A program made the translations under genes and the position numbers. This document shows, piece after piece, positions 8,817-46,398 of a stretch of 64,000 nt of DNA (position 1 is the first letter of the stretch; each line of letters begins with the position of its first letter). The DNA lies in NCBI RefSeq assembly GCF_030813495.1, contig NZ_JAUSUI010000006.1, forward strand, positions 310,001 to 374,000. Reading direction: 5' to 3'. The stretch is from Ancylobacter polymorphus. GTDB taxonomy: Bacteria; Pseudomonadota; Alphaproteobacteria; Rhizobiales; Xanthobacteraceae. The notes under the pieces were generated by a model. The model did no database searches, was not told the origin of the DNA, and worked only from the letters and a program-made list of their open reading frames with translations.

Positions 8817-9413
8817 TCAGTCCTTCTTGCCGCCGTCGCCGAGCTTGTCGAGCCGCTTCTGCATATCTGCCACCTGGCGGCGCAGCTCGTCGAAATCGCC
8901 CGCCTGCGGAGCGGCAGGCGCTGCGGGCGCAGTGGGCGCCTCGTCGCGCCCGTTGGGCAAGAACATCTTGAAGGTGCGGTCAAACATTTCCATGTTGCGC
9001 CGCACCTGTTCTTCCAGCATGCCGAACCCGCCTATACCTCCCATGCCGCCAATGCCCAGCGTCTTGGTGAAGTGTTCCCGCAGGTTGTTCTGTTCCTTGC
9101 TGAAATTCTCGATCGACATGTCGAGATAGCGCGGCACCAGCATCTGCATGCTGTCGCCATAAAAGCGGATGATCTGGCGAAGGAAATTGATCGGCAGCAG
9201 GTTCTGGCCTTTGCCTTCCTGCTCGAAGATGATCTGGGTCAGTACGGAGTGAGTGATGTCATCGGAAGTCTTGGCGTCGTAGACGACGAAGTCTTCGCCG
9301 TTCTTGACCATCTGCGCGAGGTCTTCGAGCGTTACATAGGTGCTCGTGCCGGTATTGTAGAGGCGGCGGTTCGCGTATTTCTTGATGGTGACGGGTTCGG
9401 TGGATTTTGCCAT
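8817..9413 (-). CDS. phaR: Polyhydroxyalkanoate synthesis repressor
   Basis: A 198-residue regulator that binds both DNA and PHB granules, and is released from phasin and pha promoters when polymer is present. The N-terminal PHB/PHA-accumulation DNA-binding domain (IKKYANRRLYNTGTSTYVTL) and the following granule-associated domain (PRYLDMSIENFSKEQ) are intact. A Gly-rich linker (GGMGGIGGFGML) and a C-terminal coiled coil (ELRRQVADMQKRLDKL) end it. The ATG at 9413 gives the usual N terminus; an in-frame ATG at 9443 would add ten residues. It is divergent from phaA, the usual arrangement. Confidence 0.95.
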   Translation of the reverse strand: MAKSTEPVTIKKYANRRLYNTGTSTYVTLEDLAQMVKNGEDFVVYDAKTSDDITHSVLTQIIFEQEGKGQNLLPINFLRQIIRFYGDSMQMLVPRYLDMSIENFSKEQNNLREHFTKTLGIGGMGGIGGFGMLEEQVRRNMEMFDRTFKMFLPNGRDEAPTAPAAPAAPQAGDFDELRRQVADMQKRLDKLGDGGKKD

Positions 9414-10851
<1,438 letters not shown>

Positions 10852-10988
10852 GCGGGAAGCGCGGCCGGTGTCGGCCGTGACCGAAGCCTGAACCGGCGGC
10901 AGGGCGGACGCACCGCCTTGCCGTCGACACAGATCGACAAACAGAAGTCGCAAGTTCCCTTGGAAAAGGGACGCCAGAGGGGGGAGAC

Positions 10989-11714
<726 letters not shown>

Positions 11715-42858: not shown

Positions 42859-43644
42859 TCAGCCGCGGTTGAGCACGCTCAGCGTCTCTTCATGCAGGCG
42901 GCGGTCGCCTGAGGCGACGACGCGGCCGCCGGAGAGGTCGGAGCCGCCCTCCCAATTGGTGACGATGCCGCCCGCGCCCTGAACGATGGGGGTGAGCGGC
43001 AGAATGTCGAAATCGTTCAGATTGGTCTCGATGACGAGATCGACATGGCCGGCGGCCAGCATGCAATAGGCATAGCAATCGCCGCCATAGCGCGGCAGCC
43101 GCACGCGCTTCTCGACTTCCGTGTAGAGGGCGCGGTTGCCTTCCTCCATCAGCAGCGGGCTGGTGGTCATCATGACAGCTTCGCCCAGGGAGGCGCAGGG
43201 GCGGACGGTGAGCCGGCGGTCGCCGGCCGGGCCGCGATAGCGCGCCTGCGCGCCGTCGCCGGTGAAGCGCTCGCGGATGAAGGGCTGATGCATCATGCCA
43301 AAGACCGGCTCGCCCTGCCGGCACAGGCCGATCAGCGTGCCCCAGGCCGGCATGCCGCTGATGAAGGACTTTGTGCCGTCGATGGGATCGAGTACCCAGA
43401 CATAATCGGCATCGAGGCCCTCATCGGGGAACTCCTCGCCGCGCACGCCGTGGCTGGGAAAGGTGCGGCGGATCAGCGACCGCATCGCCTGCTCGGCGGC
43501 GCGGTCGGCGGCGGTGACAGGATCGAACACCGCGCCGCGACTCTTGTCCTCGACACCCAGAGCGGTGCGGAAGAAGGGCAGTATGGCCTGCCCGGACACG
43601 GTGGCGAGTTCGTCGACGAAGCTCTCGAAGTCCACCGCGCCCAT
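42859..43644 (-). CDS. hisN: Histidinol-phosphatase, inositol monophosphatase family
   Basis: A 261-residue Mg-dependent phosphatase. The IMP-family motifs are GEEFPDEG, DPIDGTKSF (86-94) and the C-terminal ETNLNDFDILPLTPIVQGAGG. Alphaproteobacterial HisN dephosphorylates L-histidinol phosphate; an inositol or other sugar-phosphate role is the alternative. The ATG at 43644 fits family length; the in-frame start at 43698 adds only Gly/Gln-rich residues. Its upstream side faces the gene-free region that holds three suhB/mmgR-like RNAs. Confidence 0.85.
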   Translation of the reverse strand: MGAVDFESFVDELATVSGQAILPFFRTALGVEDKSRGAVFDPVTAADRAAEQAMRSLIRRTFPSHGVRGEEFPDEGLDADYVWVLDPIDGTKSFISGMPAWGTLIGLCRQGEPVFGMMHQPFIRERFTGDGAQARYRGPAGDRRLTVRPCASLGEAVMMTTSPLLMEEGNRALYTEVEKRVRLPRYGGDCYAYCMLAAGHVDLVIETNLNDFDILPLTPIVQGAGGIVTNWEGGSDLSGGRVVASGDRRLHEETLSVLNRG

Positions 43645-43899
43645 CTGGTCCTGCCCCTGCTGCTGCCCCTGCCGGCCCGTTCCGTCCGGCGCCCTCACTT
43701 CCTACCGGGCAGCGCAGGGAACGGCAATTGCCCTATGCGTGGCACGGCGCGCGCGGATGCTGCCGCGACTCCTGCGCGAGGTGAGGGGCGCCCCTCGTTT
43801 TTGCCCCGCGCCAAGCGCATGGCTGCCATTCCGGCAGGGTCAAGAAATGGGCAATTCCGGCGTTGCGCCGGAGAAGCGAACCTGCCATATTATTGCAGC

Positions 43900-43998
43900 G
43901 CGGTAGAGCGATTGGCGTCGCTTCACCGCCGCCCTCCTTGGGCGTTTCCTCCCTAGACTTGGGCCGCTCCGGCAACGTGAGCGGCCCCTTTCTTTTTT
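43900..43998 (+). ncRNA. suhB/mmgR-like small RNA, copy 1
   Basis: First of three copies. Hairpin A is GCGA-TTGGCG-TCGC (43908-43921); hairpin B is GCCC-TCCTT-GGGC within the shared 38-base block at 43931-43968; then single-stranded GTTTCCTCCCTAGACTT; then a terminator GGCCGCTC with GAGCGGCC and a long T tract to 43998. The unpaired UUUCCUCCCU core plus terminator is the signature of the alphaproteobacterial suhB (mmgR) RNA family. A candidate -10 TATTAT lies at 43888-43893. Ends are estimates. Confidence 0.8.
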
Positions 43999-44217
43999 AG
44001 CCATCCACCTGAAAATAAACGATATTTTTCGCCGCTTGGCGCGCGCGGCACAGGGCAGCGTGAGCCGGCCGCCCGGGTGGTCGCCGCGTTCAGGACGATG
44101 TCGGGCGGCGCTCAAACGCACCGCAGGCCGATATCCGGGCCACGCGCGCTGGATGCGCGATTGTCGTCATTTGAGCGCCTGCGACCAATTGCCAGTTTCG
44201 TTTCTTTCGTTTCGCCG
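43999..44217. other. Spacer between small RNA copies 1 and 2
   Basis: No gene or recognised element. GC-rich stretches with one AT-rich patch (near 44010-44025). Open frames here are antisense runs through the RNA repeats. Confidence 0.5.
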
Positions 44218-44246
44218 TTGTCACCGCGGCGTCGCAGGTCTATGTT
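44218..44246 (+). promoter_or_regulatory. Candidate sigma-70 promoter of small RNA copy 2
   Basis: TTGTCA (44218-44223), 17-base spacer, TATGTT (44241-44246). It points at a start near 44253, a few bases before hairpin A of copy 2. This makes independent transcription of that copy likely. Confidence 0.6.
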
Positions 44247-44252
44247 TATTGC

Positions 44253-44354
44253 GTTGCGGCGGCGTGATTGGCGTCACGCTGCCGCCGCCCTCCTTGGGCG
44301 TTTCCTCCCTAGACTTGGGCCGCTTGCGCGCTGCGTAAGCGGCCTCTTTCTTTT
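44253..44354 (+). ncRNA. suhB/mmgR-like small RNA, copy 2
   Basis: Hairpin A is GTGA-TTGGCG-TCAC (44264-44277), a C-G to T-A compensated version of copy 1. The shared 38-base block is at 44287-44324. The terminator is GGCCGCTT with AAGCGGCC, again compensated relative to copy 1, then CTCTTTCTTTT. From the block to the end it is identical to copy 3. It has its own promoter candidate. Confidence 0.8.
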
Positions 44355-45135
44355 CGGCGCCGGCGCCGACCCGCTGTGGCCCTGCGCGCGATCTCAGAAG
44401 GCCGGTCGCGCGCCATCGTTCCACCTTTAGTGCCGCCAAGGTGCGGGATCGCGGAGCCCTTTCGTGACCGGTACTGATCCGGGGGCGGGGCGGGCTCGGG
44501 CCGATGAGCCGTCACCTATTCGCTTTGCCACGCCCCGGCTGCGGGGTGGGGCCTGAACCGGGGCGGGCACGCGAGGAGGCTCACCGGCAAACCGGTTGAA
44601 GCGCGGCAGTGATCCCGGCCGCAACGGCATTTCTTGACGGCAGTGGAACCGGAACGCCGGGCGGGGCGGGCCCCGTAAGGGCCATCCTCTTCCGGTCGCA
44701 TGTCAAGCTGGTCTCGGGTGCTCAATGGGATCGGGCGCCCAGGTCTCCTTCGGTCACGCGCAGCGTGGCGAGGGCTCCGCCAAACGTCCGTCTCGCGGGT
44801 CAAAGCCGGGAAGGAGGAGGTGGGAGGTGGGACAGGTCGGCCACCTCGCTAGCTGCCGCGCCCCAGGCGGTAGCCGGAAAGACAGCGCGACGCCCTGATT
44901 CCGGTACTGTCATCGCGAGCCGCGCGCTGGGCCTCAAAACGGAAGCGGGCGCTGACGTGCCGCGACCCCCCGGTCGGCTCCGTCAACGCCCGGCAGGGCG
45001 CCAAGCGCTCCTGAAAGGTAATTTGATACGGCAGATTGCGGTATTAATGTCACACCGCTCATGCCACCGTATTTGGTATGCCAGAAACTGACGGTGCTTG
45101 CCTTGATTATTCCGCAATGCACCTACATCTTGCAC
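44355..45135. other. Unassigned 780-base region between small RNA copies 2 and 3
   Basis: No open frame has a convincing start, codon pattern or family resemblance; the longest (44609-45091, plus) is Arg/Gly/Ser-rich and looks spurious. The DNA has many GC-rich inverted repeats, for example GCCCCGG...CCGGGGC-like pairs near 44532-44566 and GGGCCCCGTAAGGGCC at 44669-44684. The last 100 bases are AT-richer and contain the candidate promoter of copy 3. RNase P RNA, tmRNA, SRP RNA and 6S RNA signatures were looked for and not seen. Confidence 0.5.
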
Positions 45136-45234
45136 TCGCACGCAGCGATTGGCGTCGCTCCGTGCAGCCCTCCTTGGGCGTTTCCTCCCTAGACTTGGGC
45201 CGCTTGCGCGCTGCGTAAGCGGCCTCTTTCTTTT
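45136..45234 (+). ncRNA. suhB/mmgR-like small RNA, copy 3
   Basis: Hairpin A is GCGA-TTGGCG-TCGC (45145-45158); the shared block is at 45167-45204; the terminator GGCCGCTT with AAGCGGCC is followed by CTCTTTCTTTT ending at 45234. The two bases between hairpins differ from the other copies, which supports selection on the paired and core parts. A weak promoter may be TTGATT (45103) and TACATC (45124), with an unusually short 15-base spacer. Confidence 0.8.
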
Positions 45235-45516
45235 GCGCCGGACGAAGACGCCTGCCGTGGCTTCTGCCATCTTGCCGGTCGTCCCGTTGCGGTTCCGTGG
45301 TCTCTCTTTGAGAGCCCGTCCGTCCTTTCGGACCGACCTTTCCCCCCGCTTTTTCAGCGGCTTTGACCGAACAATCGGTGGTGGATTTCAGCCCGGAACC
45401 GAGCGTGCAGAATTGGTATAGCTCGCATGTCTAAAATGCAAGGCTCTGCGATGAGGTTTTTTGCGTCGCCCCATCAAAAATTTGAAACGTCTCGTCAGTG
45501 AATTGAAAAATATGGA
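45235..45516. other. Gap after small RNA copy 3
   Basis: 282 bases, with AT-rich sequence from about 45410 on. Two small hairpins (GTCCG-TCCTTT-CGGAC near 45318 and CCGCT-TTTTC-AGCGG near 45347) are visible. No gene is supported. Confidence 0.45.
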
Positions 45517-46398
45517 TTATTCAGCCGCTGTGCGCAGCGGCGCGAGGTCGAGATGCGGTATCTCAGTCAGCGCGAGCGCGACTTCGAGCAGATCGTTCTG
45601 GACGATTTCGAAATTTTCGGACGGTTCGTAGGTCGCCTCGCGCATGTAGAGCGCGCGGTTGATCTCGATCTGAACCGCATGCATCCCGGAGGCGGGGTTG
45701 CCGTAATGCTCGGTGATGAAGCCGCCGGCATAGGGCTTGTTGCGCACCACGCTGTAGCCGCGCCGGCGCAGTTCAGCCTCGATCGTGTCGGGAATGATGC
45801 CGGCGCAGCTCGTGCCGTAGCGGTCGCCGAGCACGATGTCGATGCGCCCGTCCCGCTGGCAGCCGGACGGCATGGAGTGGCAGTCCACGAGAACGGCGAC
45901 GCCGAAGCTGCGCTGCATCTGCGCCATCAGTTGCCGCAGCGAGCGGTGATAGGGCTTGTAGAGCGATTCGATGCGGGCGATCGCCTCGTCCACCGGAATG
46001 CGCCGGCCATAAATCTCCTGCGCTTCGCCGACGATGCGGGCGATGGTGCCGAGCCCGCCGGCGACGCGCATGGAGCGCGTATTGGCATAGGCGGGCAGGC
46101 GCCCTTCGAACATGCGGGGGTCGAGCTCATAGGGCTCGCGATTCACGTCGAGATAGCAGCGCGGGAAATGCGCGCGCATGAACCCCATGCCGAATCGTGT
46201 CACCTCGGCGAACAGGCGGTCGACGAAGCTGTCCTCCGAGCGGCGCAGAACGGGCAGATCGAGCCGCGACTGGCTGACGAAGGCGCGGGGATAGACGATG
46301 CCGCTATGGGGCGAATTGAACAGGAACGGGGCACGAAGCGCGGCCGGCTGGACGATCTCGAAGGCGGGGTCGATCGTCTCGGCAATGACGGCCATCAT
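45517..46398 (-). CDS. N-formylglutamate amidohydrolase family protein
   Basis: A 293-residue protein of the N-formylglutamate amidohydrolase (HutG-type) family. The opening PFLFNSPHSGIVYP and the metal-site block VLVDCHSMPSGC are diagnostic, and YCLDVNREPYELDPRMF-like residues (CYLDVNREPYELDP) follow. HutG cleaves N-formylglutamate in histidine breakdown, but no hut gene is near, so the substrate could be another N-formyl amino acid. It starts with two adjacent Met codons. The gene borders the small RNA region. Confidence 0.85.
   Translation of the reverse strand: MMAVIAETIDPAFEIVQPAALRAPFLFNSPHSGIVYPRAFVSQSRLDLPVLRRSEDSFVDRLFAEVTRFGMGFMRAHFPRCYLDVNREPYELDPRMFEGRLPAYANTRSMRVAGGLGTIARIVGEAQEIYGRRIPVDEAIARIESLYKPYHRSLRQLMAQMQRSFGVAVLVDCHSMPSGCQRDGRIDIVLGDRYGTSCAGIIPDTIEAELRRRGYSVVRNKPYAGGFITEHYGNPASGMHAVQIEINRALYMREATYEPSENFEIVQNDLLEVALALTEIPHLDLAPLRTAAE

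Follow-up and report, generated by a model that had tools for sequence, protein, structure and literature searches.

The window, the 64,000-nt stretch of Ancylobacter polymorphus DNA that was analysed, carries three plus-strand elements between a hisN-like gene and a gene for N-formylglutamate amidohydrolase (FGase), which are probably three sibling alphaR8 small RNA genes repressed by PhaR, with one seed and separate promoters. According to this reading, the three alphaR8 (suhB/MmgR) genes would be fixed in Ancylobacter, and each would have a promoter and a terminator to itself; the unpaired UUUCCUCCCU seed of each RNA would pair in trans with Shine-Dalgarno regions, probably with Hfq, and PhaR (AniA), the reader of the polyhydroxybutyrate storage state, would most likely repress all three. 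The PhaR operators would be differently placed, over the start site in copies 1 and 2 and between -35 and -10 in copy 3. As the seed is the same and the operators lie at different places, the siblings may provide a single common target set, a raised dose and differing induction thresholds. Family membership, conservation, covariation of the 5' stems of copies 1 and 2, enrichment of the operator motif and partial homogenisation of the terminators were computed. Transcription, the binding of PhaR, the part of Hfq, the targets and any division of labour are what we infer.

The elements form one repeat family in a repeat search (43928-43998, 44284-44354 and 45164-45234), in which copies 2 and 3 are 99% identical across 71 nt and copy 1 reaches 77%. 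The first-pass annotation had placed three same-strand copies here, each with a common 38-base block and a terminator hairpin followed by a T tract, and had assigned them to the suhB/mmgR family. All of this was borne out: repeats and covariance model locate three plus-strand elements at these places, the 38-base block (GCCC...GGCCGCT) is common to all copies, each 3' end carries a GC-rich stem with a T-rich tail, and the Rfam model RF00519 (suhB; MmgR; alphaR8) scored 65.8, 62.7 and 61.9 bits for copies 1, 2 and 3 against a gathering cut-off of 41 bits. This margin of about 21-25 bits, with E values of 2.5e-11 to 2.5e-10 for the window, excludes chance. The gathering-level Rfam scan of the window returned suhB and one tRNA, and nothing else; genome-wide, with 150 of the 294 first-look candidates scored, no RF00519 match above the cut-off was found besides the three copies. 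A fourth genomic match below the cut-off (G000 C4, 34 bits) was rejected, being without the UUUCCUCCCU core and only a terminator look-alike.

The flanking genes are a hisN-like gene of the inositol-monophosphatase family (42859..43698, minus strand; PF00459, 171 bits) and the FGase gene, a known neighbour of alphaR8 (45517..46398, minus strand; PF05013, 241 bits). The gap between them, earlier described as a gene-free region of 1.3 kb, measures about 1.8 kb by the longest ORFs. The neighbourhood of a suhB-family phosphatase gene was upheld by the PF00459 match and by synteny, but the published neighbour of alphaR8 is the FGase gene, hisN being on the other side. Most species are described as having one alphaR8 copy, which adjoins FGase, in the available part of the 2025 Caulobacter paper (PMC12559287).

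In the predicted folds, each RNA of about 100 nt consists of a 5' hairpin, a short GCCC/GGGC helix, the unpaired UUUCCUCCCU and a terminator. With putative 5' ends, copy 1 would be about 102 nt long (43897..43998; RF00519 match 43924-44002; fold -52.0 kcal/mol), copy 2 about 102 nt (44253..44354; match 44280-44359; -60.9 kcal/mol) and the FGase-proximal copy 3 about 101 nt (45134..45234; match 45160-45239; -50.3 kcal/mol), all on the plus strand. The 10-mer UUUCCUCCCU, the predicted anti-Shine-Dalgarno seed, follows the short helix and is unpaired in all three folds (43945..43954, 44301..44310 and 45181..45190, plus strand). A mechanical terminator scan listed only the stems of copies 2 (44317-44345) and 3 (45197-45225), both on the plus strand, and missed that of copy 1, which nevertheless has the same fold; in the folds, all copies end in the rho-independent terminator expected of RF00519.

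The three copies represent an expansion that is old and fixed, at the site where the family usually resides, and not a recent accident. All 30 genomes compared within the genus, among them the host genome, had three clustered RF00519 matches. The FGase protein was the query of a further scan, from which 80 loci of named records were retained; the 19 best of these (L035-L053), mostly from Ancylobacter species but also from Bosea sp. 117, Xanthobacteraceae bacterium 501b and two MAGs, had exactly three cores each by a core search (19/19). The remaining 61 loci had one core in 56 cases, two in four and none in one. Among these loci, which were collected by FGase, all cores lay between FGase and hisN in every one of the 76 that had both a core and hisN, the 19 included; three further core-bearing loci had no hisN match. 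Paired alphaR8 cores were seen at the FGase-hisN site in other Hyphomicrobiales (L059, L092, L096 and L112). In the host's family, at least one RF00519 match was present in 194 of 198 genomes. Among other genera, 46 of 186 genomes had at least three matches at E <= 0.001, wherever in the genome these lay, by a hand count that takes in adjacent or scattered copies, some below the cut-off. Several copies per genome are common, and the notable point is the presence of three at one site throughout the genus.

Multiple copies are on record. In the accessible text of Corbino et al. 2005 (PMC1273637), suhB is a noncoding RNA whose strand is opposite to that of the suhB gene; it has a short 5' helix, and many genomes contain several copies of it. 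Many genera with several alphaR8 copies, some of them adjacent, are mentioned in the part seen of PMC12559287. As multiple and adjacent copies are already in print, the arrangement is of a known kind. For such copies, PMC12559287 cites Lagares 2016. Within the open-licence literature, no publication on small RNAs of Ancylobacter was found.

The 5' hairpin sits outside the RF00519 model. It occupies 43900..43929 in copy 1 (UUGGCG apex at 43912-43917), 44256..44285 in copy 2 (apex 44268-44273) and 45138..45165 in copy 3 (apex 45149-45154), where the stem is nearly invariant, always on the plus strand. Each of the 63 elements that do not belong to the group has a hairpin at the same place, at <= -5 kcal/mol and with varied loops. 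A hairpin in the 5' position is not itself new, and it is the apex A-UUGGCG-U that stands out: all 60 copies of the 20 loci, the window among them, have it unchanged while the stem varies, and among the 64 elements from the 61 other loci one has UUGGCG. In the predicted folds, a U-G wobble forms within UUGGCG and leaves a UGGC tetraloop; the unpaired bases number six or four.

The stem itself covaries. When the 37 distinct hairpins are pooled, 89.2% of the cells are paired; column shuffles reach 70.5% on average and 75.2% at most, and arm shuffles 78.1% at most, the rows being ungapped and the shuffles ignoring the kinship of the loci. Two-sided changes occur at 9 of 11 positions. Taken by copy, pairing is 88.5% versus 81.3% for copy 1 (arm-shuffle maximum 88.0) and 92.9% versus 78.7% for copy 2 (arm-shuffle maximum 90.4). 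The stem of copy 3 shows no excess over the shuffles (88.9% versus 87.9%, maximum 88.9), because it hardly varies and its single mismatched position was excluded.

When the host's family was searched for exact matches to the apex with the core after it, 58 of 391 genomes had one (control 0): every genome of the genus (30) and, from seven other genera, 28 of the remaining 361. The rarity of UUGGCG in the 61 outside loci is explained by the scarce sampling of these seven genera there. Nine apex-bearing loci outside the genus were inspected; each has one apex-type copy, adjacent to FGase, and six of the nine have an additional hisN-side copy without the apex. Two more matches of the search pattern (L227 at 5398, L229 at 4396) were dropped as unlike alphaR8 elements. 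An apex-type FGase-side copy is probably ancestral to the clade, and in Ancylobacter all three copies bear the apex. A fourth apex-type alphaR8 copy lies outside the cluster in two genomes of the genus (G022, C1:4242023-4242063; G020, C84:120592-120632).

The UUGGCG apex is probably a second functional element. A bolder proposal, which we put forward as tentative and on the doubtful side, is that the apex could serve as a second recognition module specific to the clade, at which a partner RNA (a sponge) or a protein would dock; docking of a sponge RNA would be similar to what is known of CrfA and Caulobacter SisA. If true, one partner would address all three siblings together while their promoters diverge, and Ancylobacter with some related genera would have a two-module alphaR8 subtype. 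The string UUGGCG was not found in related open-licence papers, a search that a paper containing that string alone could escape.

The three RNAs have different upstream regions, with clear copy-specific conservation for copies 1 and 3, which suggests that each copy is likely a separate transcription unit. The putative promoter of copy 1 (43863..43891, plus strand; TTGCGC -17- CATATT) matches the consensus weakly and is absent from the promoter scan; CTGCCATATTATT was found in copy 1 of 19 of the 20 loci. For copy 2 the candidate is TTGTCA -17- TATGTT (44218..44246, plus strand), which was returned by the scan with 9/12 matches. The candidate of copy 3, TTGATT -17- CATCTT (45103..45131, plus strand), is absent from the scan and lies in a strongly conserved block, CCTTGATTA being found at this copy in all 20 loci.

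All three window promoters contain the PhaR/AniA operator motif (YGCRNYGCR), as does that of S. meliloti mmgR. It lies over the predicted start in copies 1 (43894..43902) and 2 (44250..44258), and in copy 3 between -35 and -10, outside the RNA (45113..45121), in each case on the plus strand. In the available part of PMC12542648, S. meliloti PhaR (AniA) is reported to bind the mmgR promoter in EMSA and to repress it, with YGCRNYGCR as the centre of its motif. In the 60 nt examined per locus, the box was present for copy 1 in 17 of 20 loci, for copy 2 in 20 of 20 and for copy 3 in 19 of 20, so that three copy-1 loci and one copy-3 locus had no match; the shuffle means were 2.1, 3.3 and 2.2, respectively, with shuffles that disregard the relatedness of the loci. 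Outside the group, 61 of 63 elements had the box against 7.7 in shuffles, one of the 64 elements having been dropped as too short. The box of copies 1 and 2 covers the predicted start in most cases and overlaps the 5' stem of the RNA itself, so part of the motif conservation may stem from the RNA.

The genome has one match to PF05233 (PhaR), in the window at 9081-9197 on the minus strand. By eye, this gene is divergent from phaA-like (9577-10851) and phaB-like (10989-11714) ORFs, and the region (8817-11714) is about 32-35 kb from the small RNA genes. Two of the three phasin genes of the genome have paired PhaR-type boxes upstream, with starts 18 or 30 nt apart (L126 1362-1400; L127 2131-2157, which is the same as L128 1368-1394), supporting the view that the PhaR motif is in use in the host. 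At the third phasin gene, no PhaR-type box was seen placed upstream.

The first-pass annotation had suggested that tandem copies may give dose or condition-specific control, and both ideas can be set against these promoters. The copies might be divided by condition, each promoter answering to a signal of its own (for instance nitrogen via NtrC, carbon or growth phase) as for SisA-D, whose promoters have no motif in common, and with the shared PhaR motif incidental or inactive; we consider this unlikely, though it is the alternative that survives best. It agrees with the different upstream regions, clearly conserved by copy in copies 1 and 3, with the precedent of Caulobacter SisA-D (PMC12559287, in the part seen) and with the activation of mmgR by NtrC in S. 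meliloti that the accessible part of a review describes (PMC7143759). It does not agree well with the enrichment of the operator motif in all three copies, which predicts a common input, nor with the box of copy 3, which lies outside the RNA and is present in 19 of 20 loci. As the promoters of the Caulobacter siblings are without a common motif, common control is not universal.

The terminators of the copies are partly homogenised. Inner sequences of the terminator are identical between copies of the same genome in 13 of 60 comparisons, and permutation gave a mean of 3.2 and a maximum of 9 in 10,000 draws; this excess suggests that the 3' half has undergone gene conversion. Together with the identical seed, it could be taken to mean that three interchangeable copies, kept alike by gene conversion, simply lift the output of the small RNA. 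This is rather improbable, as the promoters and the outer 5' stems remain copy-specific. Redundant or decaying repeats without selective value are very improbable: copies 2 and 3 are nearly identical in the 3' half, but the triplet is kept in 30 of 30 genomes of the genus, and the apex (60/60) and the stem covariation contrast with a mostly unconserved spacer between copies 2 and 3. In this 743-nt spacer, no conserved island was found apart from about 170 nt upstream of copy 3. The latter block (44929-45101) is conserved in the nearest relatives, and farther relatives match short parts of it only. A 160-aa ORF is present in the gap between copies 2 and 3.

A possible sponge and possible targets were sought with the exact complement of the 10-mer, AGGGAGGAAA. 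According to the available text of PMC12559287, Caulobacter SisA (alphaR8) represses many mRNAs, likely via the same 10-mer, and is sponged at the 10-mer site by CrfA with Hfq. The genome has ten matches to AGGGAGGAAA: three are the antisense of the small RNAs themselves, five are located 2-4 nt ahead of a start codon and two are elsewhere. No CrfA-like sponge was identified among these ten; the last two sites are overlapped by ORFs. The five candidate targets encode a Rieske_3 and Molybdopterin protein, which by reading appears arsenite-oxidase-like, a 105-aa protein without a Pfam match, two NMT1-type substrate-binding proteins and one ABC ATPase. As AGGGAGGAAA ahead of a start codon is also a plain strong Shine-Dalgarno sequence, these genes are leads only. 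Across the genus, 26 of 30 genomes contain the pattern AGGGAGGAAA-N2-4-ATG, with 53 matches in total and a control of 0 that is unfair as the start codon was reversed too. Phasin mRNAs are not supported as direct targets: when duplex energies were computed over a 23-nt stretch around the 10-mer for the leaders of two of the three phasin genes, 18 and 17 of the 35 control leaders, taken from mechanically chosen window ORFs, did at least as well.

One of the closest described systems is MmgR of Sinorhizobium meliloti, which has the same family core, 10-mer, terminator and PhaR/AniA operator in the promoter, and for which the part of the literature seen also reports three stem-loops. It is given there as the sole copy in S. 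meliloti and 77 nt long, whereas Ancylobacter has three copies of about 100 nt with a UUGGCG hairpin. SisA-D of Caulobacter crescentus are likewise several siblings with one common seed, SisA being beside the FGase gene, but, in the part of PMC12559287 seen, they are four genes at separate places with promoters without a common motif, while the three genes of Ancylobacter are clustered and have a common operator motif. AbcR1/AbcR2 (alphar15) are tandem alphaproteobacterial Hfq small RNAs with anti-Shine-Dalgarno motifs, as far as the source seen describes them; they differ in family and neighbourhood. The alphaR8 small RNAs have been linked with carbon storage in Sinorhizobium and, in Caulobacter, with the feast-famine switch. 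Whether alphaR8 siblings act redundantly or separately is stated as an open question in the accessible part of PMC12559287. With its common seed and apex and its separable promoters, a compact, genus-wide triplet would lend itself well to distinguishing dose from division of labour, and would also serve to find the binding partner of the invariant apex.

SorY of Rhodobacter (RF02651), considered here as a possible Rhodobacter counterpart of alphaR8, has a 5' hairpin, CCUCCCU and a similar lead into the terminator. The copies score far below the RF02651 cut-off of 111 bits (copy 2 22.5 bits, copy 1 21.6 bits). Around two SorY-like loci (L157, L158), no FGase or hisN was found within 18 kb; this is a weak test, since RF00519 loci read in the same way gave FGase only (L160), hisN only (L161) or, for a sub-threshold 33-bit match (L159), neither. 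In Rfam, SorY is without a clan and suhB belongs to CL00108. A distant kinship of SorY and alphaR8 is possible. SorY-like loci in two other alphaproteobacterial genomes (L129, L130) have an alphaR8-like 5' hairpin, CCUCCCU, GACU and a terminator. A further locus (L132), with the same family label (f48) as these two genomes, has two CCTCCCTG motifs in a short stretch, the first of which adjoins GATTGGCGG / CCGCCAATC arms.
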